NCBI GenBank assembly: GCA_030673345.1
Contig: DAOVJH010000012.1
Span: 1-12,314, forward strand
Reading direction: 5' to 3'
Length of the DNA: 12,314 nucleotides
DNA from: Pseudomonadota bacterium
Lineage (GTDB): Bacteria; Pseudomonadota; Gammaproteobacteria; SZUA-229
Position numbers and translations under genes: made by a program. Positions 4,222 through 11,062 of this stretch are shown piece by piece (the first letter of the stretch is position 1; every line of letters begins with the position of its first letter). A model generated the notes under the pieces. The model ran no database searches. It saw only the letters and a list, made by a program, of their open reading frames with translations, and was not told the DNA's origin.

Positions 4222-5883
4222 ATGCCAATACTGACGCCAGGCCAATTCATCAGGATGTTACGCATTAACTGGGTGTTAATGCTACACGGCCTTGATGACA
4301 TTATTTTTACCACGCATCTGTTCCGCCCGTTCCGATTTATCATCTATATTTTTCCGTGGAACTGGTTTCGCCGTAAGCGCAAGCCGCGCGCTGTTCGCAT
4401 GCGGGAAGCGCTGGAAGACCTGGGGCCGATATTCATAAAGTTTGGACAGATGCTGTCGACCCGGCGTGATTTGCTGGCTGATGATATCGCTGATGAACTG
4501 ACACGCCTGCAGGATGACGTGCCGGCCTTCCCCGGCACGCAAGCCACCTTAATAGTCGAAAAAGCTTTCGGCCAGAAAGTTGGTGATCTGTTTGAGTCGT
4601 TTGATGAGCAGCCGTTGGCTTCAGCATCGGTAGCACAGGTTCATGCTGCCGTCTTAAAAACCGGCGAAGATGTTGTCGTAAAAGTGCTGCGTCCCGATGT
4701 GCTGCCGGTTATCAAGCGCGATATCTCGCTGCTCTATATCATTGCCGAGCTGGCGGCGAAGTATTCCTCTCAGCTGAGGCGCCTGCGTCCCGTCGAAGTT
4801 ATCGAAGAATATGAAAAGACGATACTGGACGAGCTGGACCTGATGCGCGAGGCGGCGAATGCGAGTCAGCTACGGCGAAACTTTGAAGGTTCGTCTGACC
4901 TGTACGTGCCAGAAATCTACTGGGACTATGTGCGCAAGAATGTTCTCGTCATGGAGAGGATCTACGGTACGCCGATACGCGACACCGATTCGTTGCGAGC
5001 GCAGGGAACAAACATGGAGCGGTTGGCGGCAATGGGTGTTGAGATATTTTTTACCCAGGTATTCACGCACAACTTTTTCCATGCGGACATGCACCCGGGC
5101 AATATTTTTGTCGATACGGATAATCCTGAAAGCCCGAAATATATCGCTGTGGACTTTGGCATTATCGGCACCCTGAGCCAGACGGACAAACGTTATCTTG
5201 CAGAAAATTTCCTGGCGTTTTTTCAGCGGGATTATTACAAGGTCGCCAAACTGCACGTGGAGTCTGGCTGGGTGCCTTCGCATACGCGTGTTGATGAATT
5301 CGAATCAGCTATCCGTAGCGTCTGTGAGCCCATCTTTGAAAAGCCGCTGAAAGAAATTTCTTTTGGCCAGCTGTTGTTGCGATTATTTCAGACTGCCCGA
5401 CGGTTTAATATGGAAGTTCAGCCGCAGCTCGTGCTGCTGCAAAAAACCCTGTTAAACATCGAAGGCCTGGGTCGACAGCTGTATCCGGATCTTGATCTCT
5501 GGAAGACGGCGAAACCGTTTTTAGAAAACTGGATGGAAGAACAGGTGGGCCCGCGCGCCCTGATGCACAACCTCAAAGAAGACATGCCTTACCTGATCGA
5601 GAAACTGCCAGAGATGCCGGGCCTGATTTACAAGAGCCTGAAAGTCTATGCCGACGGTGAGCATCAGCTTAATCAGATTAAGCAGCTCGAGAAGATCAGC
5701 GAGAAACTGGATCATAACCATCAGCGCAGCGCCTACGTCACCAGCGGTTCGGCGGCGTTGGTCGGTGCATCGGTTATCTATACGTTTGCCGACTCAGTAC
5801 CGTTGTTGCTGGGCGCACCGGCATTGGCATGGGCTGGCGGTGTCGGTGGTGTGTTGCTGATACTGTTTGGGCTTAAAAAATAA
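4222..5883 (+). CDS. ubiB: UbiB, atypical kinase/ATPase of ubiquinone biosynthesis
   Basis: Member of the ABC1/ADCK/UbiB protein-kinase-like family, needed for aerobic ubiquinone synthesis; probably an ATPase that extracts lipid precursors from the membrane. Motifs in order: the family KxGQ signature [12 protein letters not shown] (73-84); an Ala-rich loop ASASVAQVH (133-141) that replaces the kinase Gly-rich loop; the nucleotide-site lysine in VVVKVLRPD (151-159); [18 protein letters not shown] (196-213); the catalytic-loop equivalent [10 protein letters not shown] (287-296); and the metal-binding DFG (311-313). Then come [17 protein letters not shown] and the highly conserved [19 protein letters not shown]. 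Two hydrophobic segments at about 504-521 and 527-550 are the expected C-terminal membrane anchor. At 553 aa it is full length. The ribosome binding site before ATG 4222 is weak, but MPILTPGQ matches the usual N-terminal position. Confidence 0.98.
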
Positions 5884-5898
5884 CCATAGACTCTAAAT

Positions 5899-8724
5899 AT
5901 GAAACAGCGGATTGTTCTAATAATATGTTGTTTCATATTCCTGAATAAGTTTGCCTATGCTATCGACCCCGGACTGGACTGGAAGACCATAGAAAGTGAG
6001 CACCTGTATGTTCACTATGCTGATGGTAACAAAGTATTTGCTGAGCGAGCACTGGCTATAGCAGAAGCCGCTCACCGCCGACTGACCCGGGAGCTCAACT
6101 GGAACCCCTGGGACAAAACACACGTCGTACTCAGTGATGAAACTGACCAGCCAAATGGTTATGCCACCCCGTTGTTCTTTAACCACACGGTATTGTTTTT
6201 AGCGCCGCCGACAAGCATCAATACGCTGGAAGACTTCGATGACTGGTTCAGTACGTTAATCGTTCACGAATATACCCATATCGTCCACCTCGACCAGAGT
6301 TCTGCCGCGCCAGAATTTATAAGAAATATTTTCGGCCGCTTCCTGCTGCTGTTTCCTAATGTGTTTCAGCCGGCATGGGTGACCGAAGGTCTGGCAACGT
6401 ACAAAGAGACCTCTCCTGACCGTGGTGTTGGCCGCGGCCAGAGTACGATGTTCGCTTCGATGATGCGTGAGGAGGTGGCCAGAGGGTTACAGCCGATCTC
6501 GCACGTGAACCTGCCGGTAGCCACCTGGCCCGCAGGCACCACCCGTTATCTCTATGGCGTGTACTTCATGAATTTTCTTGCAGAAAAATATGGTGAAGAG
6601 GAGCTGCACGAGTGGATAGAAGAATATGGCGATAACCTGGTGCCATTCTTTATCAATAGAAACGCAAGGCAGACGCTGGGTAAAGAACTGACACCATTAT
6701 GGCAAGAATATAAACGATGGTTGCAAGACAGGTTTCAGGCGCAGATAGAGGCTATCGAAGCACGCGGCATCAGGGCGGGCAAGCAGATTTCCAGCGATGC
6801 TTATCGTACAGATTCGCTGCGTGTTATATCCAGAGAAAAAGGCGATGAACTCTATTATGTACGCAATAGCGGTTATAAGCGTGCCAGTCTGGTACACATC
6901 GATAGTAATGGTGTGGCCGAAGAGCTGCTCGATCTCAATGGCGGCGCAAGCCTTGATATACATCCGCAGGCAGGATTGCTGCTGACGCAAAATGAGTTCT
7001 GCAATAATTACACGGTCTATAAAGATATCTACCGCTATGATGAAAGCAGTGAAGAACTAGAGCGTCTTACAGAATGCGGGCGTTACCTCTTTGCCAGCTG
7101 GCATCCGGATGGTAAACAGATGGTCGCGGTACATCATGAGGCAGGGCAGCTGTCTCTGCATCTTCTGAATGCAGAGGCTGAGCTACAGGACATTCTATGG
7201 CAGTCTGCCGATGACGAGGTGATTGGTCAGATCGATATCTCGGCAGAGGGTAATGAACTTGTCGCATCGGTCTGGCGCAAGCAGGATGGCTGGAACATCG
7301 AAATATTTAATCTGGCTGACAGGCATTGGCAGAAGATAACGACGGGTGTGAGCATCACGGCGAACCCAAGGTTTACCGCTCAGGGCGATATCTTATTCAG
7401 TATGGAAGCAGACGGGGTTTATAACCTGTACCGCTATTCTTCGGATTCGGCAAAAGTAGAGCAGCTGACTAACCTGGTCGGTGGCGCTTTTCAGTCAGAC
7501 CAGGCCGAAGCGGATGGTGCTATCTATTACGCCGGTTACACGGCAGACGGTTATGCGATCTACAAAATGGAAGATGCTTCTGCGTTCGCAGGTGCGCCGC
7601 CTTTTAAAGAGGACCATCTGAAAAAGCTTGAGTACGATGTGACGGATCATGCGCAGGAAGATTATTCCGCATTATCAAACATGCACCCGCGTTGGTGGTT
7701 TCCAGCGATGACCTTTACCGAGCAGCGTTCAGAATACGGCTTCACGACCAGTGGCGCTGATGCGCTTTCTTTCCATCGCTATTCGCTCACCGCCAGTTAT
7801 GATACAAAACTGGATGTGCCGGCAGGTTCGCTCGCTTATGCATACACTGATCGATTATTTCTTTCTGCGCGGCGCTTTAACGAGATAGCGCTGGATATAA
7901 ATGATGTTGTAAGCCGCGTTTCGAAGCGAAGTTTAGCCAGTGCGGTTTTAGCTTTTCCGAATTATTATCTGCAGCGGCAGTACAATTTATTATTCTCTGC
8001 AATTTTTGATAAGACCGCAGATGGTGAGTTGGCGGCAGGTGTTATGCCGCGCGCTGATTTTGAAGACCACCTTCTCGGTATTGCCGGGCTGTACAATTCT
8101 GCTGATTATAATCCGCTGTCGATCAGTCTCAATGACGGTATGAATCTGCGGCTGGTGGCAGAAGACAGTGATGCGTTGGATGCTGATTTCAGCGGCCAGG
8201 TATACACCCTGGACTGGCGGCAATATATCCGAACTGGCAGAGAGAGTGTGCTGGCGTTTCGTTTTGTGCAGGGCTGGGGTACGGACAATCCGAGGCGATT
8301 TAAACTGGGCGGTGAAGGCCTGAACTCGAATGCGGTTGATGTCGTTTTCGGCAATAGCGGCCAGCCAGTTTTCGATGTGCGTGATTATGCTTTGCGCGGT
8401 TATAAGGAAGGCCGCCCGGAACTGCGTGGCAGGCGCATGCAGCTGCTCAGTGCAGAATGGCGCTTCCCCATCGACCGAATCGAAAAAGGTTTCATGGCAC
8501 CGCCGGTAGGTCTCATGCAGTGGTTCGGTAAGGTGTTTGCAGAAACCGGCAGCGCATATCAGGATTCACCGGACACGTACTATAACAGCGCCGGTCTCGA
8601 GCTGACGGCGGATATCAATATTTTCTATTATCTGATTTTACGCACACGTCTCGGTTACGCGCATGGTTTTGACAGTGCTATCGGTGATGACCGAGTATAT
8701 CTGAAGATAGGCAGCAGCTTTTAA
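5899..8724 (+). CDS. Exported gluzincin metallopeptidase-propeller protein with Omp85-like outer-membrane barrel
   Basis: A probable outer-membrane protein of 941 aa with three parts. A Sec signal peptide (1-21) ends in AYA. Residues about 25-285 form a peptidase MA-type (gluzincin) domain: HEYTH (123-127) supplies two zinc histidines and the catalytic Glu124, and WVTEGLA (160-166) supplies the likely third ligand Glu163. Residues about 305-560 hold roughly six TolB/PD40-like propeller blades, such as FASWHPDGKQMVAV (398-411); the only two cysteines of the mature protein, Cys368 and Cys393, could form a disulfide here. Residues about 597-941 look like an Omp85/BamA barrel: FKLGGEG, then the loop-6 hallmark LRGY (832-835), EWRFPI (853-858), strand-like YYNSAGLELTADIN, and a C-terminal Phe. 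I see no POTRA domains. The gene starts 15 bases after ubiB with a weak ribosome binding site, so it may be in the ubi operon. The substrate and role are unknown. The zinc site is confident, the propeller good, and the Omp85 assignment an inference from motifs. Confidence 0.82.
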   Translation: MKQRIVLIICCFIFLNKFAYAIDPGLDWKTIESEHLYVHYADGNKVFAERALAIAEAAHRRLTRELNWNPWDKTHVVLSDETDQPNGYATPLFFNHTVLFLAPPTSINTLEDFDDWFSTLIVHEYTHIVHLDQSSAAPEFIRNIFGRFLLLFPNVFQPAWVTEGLATYKETSPDRGVGRGQSTMFASMMREEVARGLQPISHVNLPVATWPAGTTRYLYGVYFMNFLAEKYGEEELHEWIEEYGDNLVPFFINRNARQTLGKELTPLWQEYKRWLQDRFQAQIEAIEARGIRAGKQISSDAYRTDSLRVISREKGDELYYVRNSGYKRASLVHIDSNGVAEELLDLNGGASLDIHPQAGLLLTQNEFCNNYTVYKDIYRYDESSEELERLTECGRYLFASWHPDGKQMVAVHHEAGQLSLHLLNAEAELQDILWQSADDEVIGQIDISAEGNELVASVWRKQDGWNIEIFNLADRHWQKITTGVSITANPRFTAQGDILFSMEADGVYNLYRYSSDSAKVEQLTNLVGGAFQSDQAEADGAIYYAGYTADGYAIYKMEDASAFAGAPPFKEDHLKKLEYDVTDHAQEDYSALSNMHPRWWFPAMTFTEQRSEYGFTTSGADALSFHRYSLTASYDTKLDVPAGSLAYAYTDRLFLSARRFNEIALDINDVVSRVSKRSLASAVLAFPNYYLQRQYNLLFSAIFDKTADGELAAGVMPRADFEDHLLGIAGLYNSADYNPLSISLNDGMNLRLVAEDSDALDADFSGQVYTLDWRQYIRTGRESVLAFRFVQGWGTDNPRRFKLGGEGLNSNAVDVVFGNSGQPVFDVRDYALRGYKEGRPELRGRRMQLLSAEWRFPIDRIEKGFMAPPVGLMQWFGKVFAETGSAYQDSPDTYYNSAGLELTADINIFYYLILRTRLGYAHGFDSAIGDDRVYLKIGSSF

Positions 8725-8729
8725 AGTAC

Positions 8730-8747
8730 AATGATTGTTTTATCATT
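8730..8747. repeat. AT-rich hairpin between the peptidase gene and uvrD
   Basis: AATGAT (8730-8735) pairs with ATCATT (8742-8747) across a TGTTTT loop, just after the stop of the upstream gene. The stem is weak and has no T-run behind it, so it is noted only as a possible structure. Confidence 0.25.
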
Positions 8748-8785
8748 CATTCTAACCATAACAGAAGATAAGCAGTAAGCCGCCG

Positions 8786-11062
8786 ATGTCAGACCAGCCA
8801 CAATCAGATCAGCAGCGATCAGACCAGAAAAAATCCGAAGCGGACGATAGTGTTTTTCAGCAGATCGTACAGCAGGCTGAAGAGGCCGATGTCTCACATA
8901 TACTGAATGACCTGAACGATGCTCAGCGTCGGGCCGTTACGGCAGCACCTGAGCATATGCTGGTGCTCGCGGGTGCCGGCAGCGGCAAGACGCGAGTTCT
9001 GGTGCACCGCATCGCATGGCTGAACCGGGTAGAGGGTGTATCGCCATATAATATCTTTGCCGTAACCTTCACCAATAAAGCGGCAGCAGAGATGCGCCAG
9101 CGTGTCGAAAAACTTCAGGACATGCCCGTCTCTGGCATGTGGGTCGGCACCTTTCACGGGCTGGCACACCGCATGCTGCGCAATCACTGGAAAGAAGCAA
9201 AACTGCCGCAGAGTTTTCAGATCCTGGATTCTGATGACCAGTACCGTATGGTGCGCCGCATCCTAAAAGCACTGGAGCTGGATGAGGCCCGCTGGCCGCC
9301 AAAACAGGCGCAGGCATTTATCAATGCGCGTAAAGATGAAGGCAAGCGGCCGTCGCATATCGACACTTCTCGTAACCCCATCTATGAGCAGATGGTCAGG
9401 ATCTACACGGCTTATGAAGTCGCCTGTGAACGTGCCGGGGTTATCGATTTTGCTGAGCTGTTATTGCGTACCCTGGAGCTGGTCCGGGACAATGATTCAT
9501 TGCAGGCGCATTACCAGAAAAGGTTTCAGCATATCCTAGTCGATGAATTCCAGGACACCAATACCATCCAGTACGCCTTGATCCAGTTACTGGCCGGCCA
9601 GTCGAACAAAGTGTTCATCGTCGGTGATGATGATCAGGCTATCTATGGTTGGCGTGGTGCGCGGGTAGAAAATATCCAGCGTTTTCAAAAACATTTCCCC
9701 AGCACCGAAGTCATCCGCCTGGAACAGAATTATCGTTCGACTACAACCATCCTCTCGGCCGCCAATGCGCTCATTGATAATAATGCTGATCGCATGGGTA
9801 AGAAACTGTGGAGTAGTGGTGAAGACGGTGAGCTGATCATCTTTTATAACGCGTATGACGAGCGTGATGAAGCGAAGTTTGTCATCGATAAGATAAAACA
9901 GTTTGTCGATGCCGGTAATGCACGAGAAGATGCCGCCATATTGTATCGCTCGAATGCGCAGTCACGTATTTTCGAGGAACGCTTCGTCAGTGAGGCTATA
10001 CCTTACCGAGTCTATGGCGGTATGCGTTTCTTTGAACGTGCAGAGATTAGAAATGCGTTAGCGTATCTGCGGTTGATGGATAATCAAAATGACGACGCTT
10101 CTTTTGAGCGGGTAGTCAATACACCGACCAGGGGCATCGGTGAACGCAGTGTCGAAAAAGTACGGGAAGTCGCCCGGCAGAATAATAGTACGCTGTGGTC
10201 TGCGGCCAGGCAGATCCTCGAAGATAAAAAGCTGCCGACGAGAGCGGCCAACGCGCTGCAGGGTTTTACCGACCTGGTCGAAGGCCTGCGTGCCGATACC
10301 AGTGACATGTCGTTGCATCAGCAGGTTGACCACGTGGTGCACAATGTCGGCCTGATCGAATACTACGAAAAAGAAAAAACAGAAAAAGCCCAGGCGCGCG
10401 TCGAAAACATCGAAGAACTTATTACCGCTGCACGTGGTTTTGATTACGATCAGTCAGAACTCGAAGTGCCGATGGATGAGCTCACCGCATTTTTAACGCA
10501 TGCCGCTTTAGAGGCGGGAGAAGGACAGGCCGCAGAGTGGGATGATTGTGTGCAGCTGATGACCATGCACAGTGCCAAGGGCCTCGAATTCCCCCTGGTG
10601 TTTATCGTCGGCATGGAAGAGGGGCTTTTTCCGAGCCAGCGCTCACTGGACGAAGAGGGCAAGCTCGAAGAAGAGCGCCGTCTGTGTTATGTCGGCATAA
10701 CCCGTGCACGGGAACAGCTGGTATTAAGTTGCGCAGAACATCGGCGTCTATATGGCCAGGACCTGTACCCCTCGCCTTCACGGTTCGTCAGTGAGATACC
10801 GGAGCATCTGGTGAACGAAGTCAGGGGCAGGCATAATACAAGTCATGCTGTATCTTCCTCACAGTACAAAGCATCAAGCTATAAAACGACAGAGACCGTT
10901 AACGGAGTCTATGTTGGTCAGCGTGTCACGCATAAGAAATTTGGTGAAGGCATGGTAACAAACCTGGAAGGCAGCGGAAGTCATGCGCGCGTGCAGGTCA
11001 ATTTTGAGTACGAAGGCAGTAAATGGCTGGTGATGGCATATGCCAATTTGTCGCCAGCTTAA
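8786..11062 (+). CDS. uvrD: UvrD, DNA helicase II (SF1A 3'-5' helicase)
   Basis: ATP-driven helicase that removes the excised strand in nucleotide excision repair and unwinds DNA in mismatch repair. SF1A motifs are all present: Q motif LNDAQRRAV (43-51), Walker A AGAGSGKT (62-69), Ia AVTFTNKAAAEM (92-103), Walker B LVDEFQDTN (251-259), III GDDDQAIYGWRGA (280-292), IV LEQNYRS (312-318), V LMTMHSAKGLEFP (591-603) and VI YVGITRAREQL (635-645). The C-terminal Tudor-like domain (about 708-757; VGQRVTHKKFGEGMV) binds RNA polymerase in E. coli UvrD and marks this as UvrD rather than Rep. E. coli UvrD begins at the equivalent of residue 35, so about 34 residues are extra here: a Ser/Asp/Gln-rich, probably disordered tail from a 15-bp tandem repeat. 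No in-frame ATG lies near the usual start, which supports 8786. The ribosome binding site is weak. Confidence 0.97.
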   Translation: MSDQPQSDQQRSDQKKSEADDSVFQQIVQQAEEADVSHILNDLNDAQRRAVTAAPEHMLVLAGAGSGKTRVLVHRIAWLNRVEGVSPYNIFAVTFTNKAAAEMRQRVEKLQDMPVSGMWVGTFHGLAHRMLRNHWKEAKLPQSFQILDSDDQYRMVRRILKALELDEARWPPKQAQAFINARKDEGKRPSHIDTSRNPIYEQMVRIYTAYEVACERAGVIDFAELLLRTLELVRDNDSLQAHYQKRFQHILVDEFQDTNTIQYALIQLLAGQSNKVFIVGDDDQAIYGWRGARVENIQRFQKHFPSTEVIRLEQNYRSTTTILSAANALIDNNADRMGKKLWSSGEDGELIIFYNAYDERDEAKFVIDKIKQFVDAGNAREDAAILYRSNAQSRIFEERFVSEAIPYRVYGGMRFFERAEIRNALAYLRLMDNQNDDASFERVVNTPTRGIGERSVEKVREVARQNNSTLWSAARQILEDKKLPTRAANALQGFTDLVEGLRADTSDMSLHQQVDHVVHNVGLIEYYEKEKTEKAQARVENIEELITAARGFDYDQSELEVPMDELTAFLTHAALEAGEGQAAEWDDCVQLMTMHSAKGLEFPLVFIVGMEEGLFPSQRSLDEEGKLEEERRLCYVGITRAREQLVLSCAEHRRLYGQDLYPSPSRFVSEIPEHLVNEVRGRHNTSHAVSSSQYKASSYKTTETVNGVYVGQRVTHKKFGEGMVTNLEGSGSHARVQVNFEYEGSKWLVMAYANLSPA
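8789..8833 (+). repeat. 15-bp in-frame tandem repeat at the 5' end of uvrD
   Basis: Three units start at 8789, 8804 and 8819, each beginning TCAGAYCAG and encoding SDQ plus two variable residues. A fourth, decayed unit (8834-8848) encodes SEADD. Because the unit is a multiple of three, gain or loss of copies would keep the helicase in frame. Confidence 0.75.

Follow-up and report, generated by a model that had tools for sequence, protein, structure and literature searches.

A single gammaproteobacterial protein predicted to combine a metallopeptidase, a TolB-like propeller and an Omp85-type barrel

Results

Architecture of the 941-residue protein

The window analyzed here is a 12,314-nucleotide stretch of contig DAOVJH010000012.1 (assembly GCA_030673345.1), from a gammaproteobacterium of the GTDB lineage SZUA-229, and we investigated within it an open reading frame that extends over 941 codons, free of internal stops, to a TAA codon (Table 1). 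A preliminary description of this gene, made by a model from the sequence alone, had proposed that it encodes an Omp85-type outer-membrane barrel whose periplasmic part is a protease plus a propeller instead of POTRA domains, and had suggested structure prediction and a search for similarity to Omp85 proteins as checks. Both were carried out. An AlphaFold2 model of the protein, built from a 72-row alignment of relatives, had a mean predicted local distance difference test (pLDDT) value of 90.9 and a predicted template modelling score of 0.89, and comprised three domains, i.e., a peptidase, a propeller and a barrel. The proposed architecture was supported by this model and by the profile and fold matches given below. 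The N-terminus, MKQRIVLIICCFIFLNKFAYA, reads like a signal peptide, as the preliminary description had it.

Table 1. Features of the gene and its predicted product, in window coordinates
Feature	Residues	Position	Strand	Basis
Gene, peptidase / propeller / Omp85-type barrel protein	1-941	5899..8724	+	open frame, relatives, AlphaFold2
Putative signal peptide, MKQRIVLIICCFIFLNKFAYA	about 1-21	5899..5961	+	by eye from sequence; low pLDDT at 1-19
Predicted gluzincin-fold metallopeptidase domain	22-290	5962..6768	+	AlphaFold2 model, fold comparison
HEYTH	123-127	6265..6279	+	H123, E124, H127 in 72/72 rows
WVTEGL	160-165	6376..6393	+	E163 in 72/72 rows
YLYG	217-220	6547..6558	+	Y217, Y219 in 72/72 rows
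Predicted TolB-like beta-propeller, read as six blades	291-563	6769..7587	+	AlphaFold2 model
Linker	564-598	7588..7692	+	mostly coil, one short helix (AlphaFold2)
Predicted 16-strand Omp85-type barrel	599-937	7693..8709	+	AlphaFold2 model
LRGY, in long loop 795-845 between strands 11 and 12	832-835	8392..8403	+	AlphaFold2; conservation

The Omp85-type barrel

The C-terminal domain was modelled as a barrel of 16 strands, of which the first eight span residues 599-606, 611-620, 626-635, 640-649, 652-665, 671-689, 694-711 and 721-733, and the last eight residues 746-756, 767-778, 784-794, 846-864, 870-887, 895-908, 912-923 and 931-937; this count omits a three-residue strand (801-803) in the long loop that links strand 11 to strand 12. 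LRGY lies in this loop, which we take to be the position of BamA loop 6, and in the profile alignment it pairs with BamA VRGF. G834 and Y835 are found in 72/72 rows and R833 in 66/72. The preliminary description had pointed out LRGY together with EWRFPI, both of which are present, and five strand-like segments lining up with the last five strands of BamA; in the model, the last five strands indeed follow the LRGY loop.

When the barrel profile was compared with 29 BamA sequences using HHalign, a match of 95.2% was obtained (91.2% at the default setting), versus 0.0% (default, 0.2%) for a control comparison with 19 FadL sequences and at most 0.2% (default, 0.6%) for 20 column-shuffled barrel profiles against BamA. 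The corresponding scores at two aligner settings were 47.7 versus at most 7.0 for the shuffles, and 56.7 versus at most 20.9. The Pfam model PF01103 matched 26 of the 72 barrel slices (best 9.7e-9); the window protein alone, at full length or as a domain slice, had no match to it, the similarity being seen only with relatives. BamA, TamA and Sam50 chains were among the matches listed in a fold comparison, while searching PDB sequences with the barrel profile returned nothing meaningful (best E 0.42). Taken together, the predicted strand number, the position of the RGY loop and the profile and fold matches place the barrel in the Omp85 superfamily.

The metallopeptidase domain

The preliminary description had singled out HEYTH and a downstream WVTEG glutamate; these correspond to H123-E124-x-x-H127 and E163, and these residues, as well as Tyr217 and Tyr219, are invariant across the 72 aligned sequences, which indicates that selection has kept an active site. 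By analogy, the two histidines would be zinc ligands and Glu124 the catalytic residue, Glu163 is presumed to be the third zinc ligand, and Tyr217 or Tyr219 may be the transition-state tyrosine. We modelled this domain separately for fold comparison, as the other domains fill the list obtained with the full model. Among the matches listed, its nearest folds were peptidases of families M1, M9 (collagenase), M30 and M61, aminopeptidases and collagenases included, at about 8-14% identity. A PDB sequence search with the peptidase profile gave nothing meaningful (best E 0.96), leaving the fold comparison as the one that matched, and the window protein alone, at full length or as a domain slice, fell below the Pfam peptidase model, a match to which needs relatives. 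With HExxH, a downstream glutamate and a predicted thermolysin-like fold, the domain has the features of clan MA gluzincins.

Within this clan, membership in two families was considered and rejected. GAMEN is the exopeptidase motif of M1 aminopeptidases, and G-x-MEN was found in 0/72 rows. As for M48, the family of BepA, the Peptidase_M48 model matched just 1 of 67 domain slices. The M1, M9, M30 and M61 peptidases share the gluzincin fold and HExxH...E with the window protein; to our knowledge, none of them occurs in a barrel protein.

The propeller and the linker

The middle domain contains 23 modelled strands between residues 305 and 557. The TolB/PD40-like blades claimed for it were recovered: TIGR02800 matched the window protein at E 6.7e-10 (38.5 bits, far below that model's cut-off for true TolB), and our profile A1 matched solved TolB at 3.6e-16. 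TolB itself differs in being soluble, periplasmic and about 430 residues long, and in relatives it is a separate gene (propeller-only matches in frames of about 430-480 residues). In the propeller, Cys368 and Cys393 (window positions 7000-7002 and 7075-7077) are both present in 47/72 rows and both absent in 25/72, and this joint presence and absence points to a disulphide between them.

Between propeller and barrel the model leaves a gap of about 35-40 residues, chiefly coil. It contains no POTRA domain, the gap being too short for one, and the protein can therefore be filed under the barrel definition of Omp85 only.

Relatives, distribution and gene neighborhood

Of 58 genomes searched, the source included, 39 had a match at E <= 0.001; seven of these (G009, G039, G041, G048, G051, G053 and G056) held remote or propeller-only matches, leaving 32, some with fragments. 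Full-length relatives share the whole architecture, at identities down to 28% (L029). Since the architecture recurs at full length in relatives and the barrel profile outscores all 20 shuffles, we consider it real and not a product of chance.

When GTDB species genomes were scanned for the two peptide patterns that are most conserved, 436 relatives were obtained, and the 79 best loci were retained. By title, these best loci were mostly Gammaproteobacteria, with Mariprofundus, Ghiorsea and other Zetaproteobacteria, and the closest named ones were titled Gammaproteobacteria bacterium or Proteobacteria bacterium, plus one Thiotrichaceae. The cultured bacterium Pleionea mediterranea also has a homologue (L097). 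After removal of partial loci (L040, L055, L073, L100, L101, L104 and L109) and of L039, 71 loci and the window protein formed the 72-row alignment, A2; alignment A3 leaves out L036, L038, L075, L081 and L091. None of 22 pattern matches in viral contigs was a relative. In an even sample of the class, at least 28 of 274 genomes carried the family, source genome included (29 matched, G041 with a remote sister type was removed, and up to three candidates per genome were scored), and in an even sample of the phylum at least 19 of 398 did, again with the source (28 matched, nine with propeller-only, TolB-like frames of 437-487 residues were removed, and up to two candidates per genome were scored).

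Two sister types were also observed. Type B (L179-L181 and L184-L187; twice in G053, and in G041 and G202) is about 1000 residues long and combines a peptidase, a propeller and a related barrel, with HHalign matches of L184-L187 to the family of 99.9% for the peptidase and 99.2% for the barrel. The xRG-aromatic motif is absent from 4/4 type B proteins. The second type, of about 920 residues, is found in G009 (L182/L190) and G005 (L189), two same-genus genomes, each only about 80% complete, in which the window's own family was not found. Its peptidase matches that of the family at 99.8% (HHalign), and its C-terminal part matched neither the family barrel nor BamA, although with just two sequences this test is weak. 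In G009 this gene is followed by what we take to be clpS- and clpA-like genes. The peptidase domain has thus probably been combined with C-terminal parts of more than one kind.

The gene lies 15 bases from an upstream ubiB-like gene and 61 bases from a downstream uvrD-like helicase gene, at a locus with the run hslV-hslU-GBBH_N-ubiE-ubiJ-ubiB (named in part from Pfam matches). The source genome assembly is fragmented, with a size of 2.18 Mb and a completeness of 85.6%. Promoter and terminator counts in 5700-8900 were no different from shuffles (3 versus 3.8 and 4 versus 2.9). Neighborhoods were counted at 71 loci (without the partial loci and L081), and 19 picked neighbors were scanned for domains. 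ubiB occupies the position directly upstream in at least 19/71 loci, all close kin, some contigs stopping before that position; the next commonest neighbor there is a gene with amino-acid-kinase and acetyltransferase domains (5/71), and a phosphoenolpyruvate-utiliser gene with a GAF domain, downstream on the other strand, occurs at any place in 8/71. The upstream ubiE-ubiJ-ubiB genes are kept just in close kin, and elsewhere the neighbors vary; no functional link was drawn from the neighborhood.

Discussion

The architecture described here, with three domains, 16 strands, an RGY loop and no POTRA, is well supported by prediction, and it is in part known. In the available text of Heinz and Lithgow (2014; PMC4104836), ten Omp85 subfamilies are defined by their barrels, one of which, WD40-Omp85, has a TolB-like propeller N-terminal to the barrel, as does the window protein, and is likened to a fusion of BamA and BamB; neither a POTRA nor a peptidase is mentioned there for this class. 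The likeness of the window protein to WD40-Omp85 is one of architecture. The preliminary description knew of no characterized member, and none was found among the open-licence papers listed, but the propeller-barrel arrangement has carried a name since 2014. The available text of PMC11116518 calls the Omp85 subfamilies not well characterized, and that of PMC13067283 uses 'WD40' for BamB and does not describe this type of protein. The peptidase-propeller-barrel type looks uncharacterized.

Other known systems resemble it in part. PlpD of Pseudomonas aeruginosa likewise carries an enzyme domain in one chain with, and N-terminal to, an Omp85-type barrel, but that enzyme is a patatin, accompanied by one POTRA; a search of the window protein up to E 1 gave no patatin hit and its model shows no POTRA, so that it was excluded from this type. 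The 'Metallo' Omp85 class also pairs the barrel with a metal-dependent N-terminal enzyme. It carries PF00149, which is labelled a metalloprotease in PMC4104836, a label repeated in PMC11116518 and PMC11014939 as far as these texts are available. The name of PF00149 in Pfam is Metallophos, and membership was rejected, as no hit to this domain was obtained with the window protein up to E 1. Finally, BepA, an M48 zinc peptidase at the beta-barrel assembly machinery (BAM) described in PMC8423444, resembles it in its proposed work as a metallopeptidase at the outer membrane, but is a separate periplasmic protein, whereas here peptidase and barrel form one chain.

The best-supported hypothesis, to which we give about an even chance, is that the 941-residue protein is a periplasmic zinc metallopeptidase anchored in the outer membrane, with a part in envelope quality control or maturation. 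The protein would be exported by Sec, its barrel would insert into the outer membrane, and the peptidase and propeller would hang on the periplasmic side, where the propeller may serve as a gate or docking platform and the peptidase could cleave or clip envelope proteins, perhaps misassembled outer-membrane proteins, much as BepA does at BAM. Zinc, activity, the side of the membrane, the substrate and the propeller's role are what we infer here. Several observations weigh against this hypothesis. The loop motif deviates from a strict Omp85 pattern, R833 being His in 6/72 rows, and the type B barrel had no match to BamA in direct profile comparison. One of the two G053 copies of type B (L179, also listed as L187) carries HETMS where the others have HExxH and looks like a pseudo-peptidase, so the scaffold can serve without a peptidase. 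Beyond close kin no widely conserved partner gene was found at the 71 loci, and the patchy presence in the class disfavors an essential quality-control role.

A rather unlikely alternative is that the protein works chiefly in assembly or translocation, like BamA or TamA: the barrel would insert or export particular proteins, the propeller would offer the docking site in place of POTRAs, and the substrate would be trimmed or removed by the peptidase. An Omp85-type barrel with an RGY loop and 44/343 barrel columns conserved in at least 90% of rows would fit this, as does the published reasoning on a fused BamA-BamB (PMC4104836, available text). However, conservation is higher in the peptidase (56/269 columns), the loop arginine is not constant, and the source genome holds further Omp85 genes (PF01103 at five places, two at contig ends and perhaps one gene), so BamA is probably not replaced; PlpD, moreover, exemplifies an Omp85 barrel whose enzyme stays periplasmic (PMC11116518, available text). 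The same paper bears on the improbable notion that the barrel serves to bring the peptidase to the cell surface, by display or secretion (type Vd), there to degrade external proteins or process surface proteins: this was the long-held view of PlpD, and was tested and rejected when its patatin domain proved periplasmic. Passage of a folded peptidase and propeller through a 16-strand barrel also seems unlikely.

Quite unlikely, too, is a nutritional or signalling protease whose peptidase and propeller trim peptides entering or leaving via the barrel as a coupled channel. Propellers gate peptidases in prolyl oligopeptidases, aminopeptidases and collagenases are among the nearest peptidase folds, and the gene is patchy and lacks a constant partner, all in line with this; yet Omp85 barrels are normally plugged rather than open to diffusion, and no general transporter neighbor was found, though an AcrB-like gene precedes the family gene in 3/71 loci. 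That the peptidase is a scaffold without activity, and the Omp85 resemblance only a general barrel likeness, is very improbable: the window protein alone reaches neither Pfam model, and type B offers both a copy devoid of HExxH and a barrel unmatched to BamA, but the active-site residues are kept in every row, the FadL control and the 20 shuffles give nothing, and strand number and loop position agree with Omp85. Going further than the anchored peptidase, a speculative reading, to which we give a low probability, would have protease and insertase in one chain, the barrel engaging nascent or stalled outer-membrane proteins, the peptidase deciding their fate and the propeller gating instead of POTRAs; the WD40-Omp85 class would then really consist of membrane-integral metallopeptidases.

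If true, the anchored-peptidase hypothesis would bring a membrane-integral metallopeptidase into the Omp85 superfamily, known for protein insertion and export. The architecture also suggests that an enzyme and a propeller can take the place of POTRAs entirely, and that a name in the literature is misplaced, the 'metalloprotease' class carrying a Metallophos domain and the real metallopeptidase residing in the propeller-bearing type.
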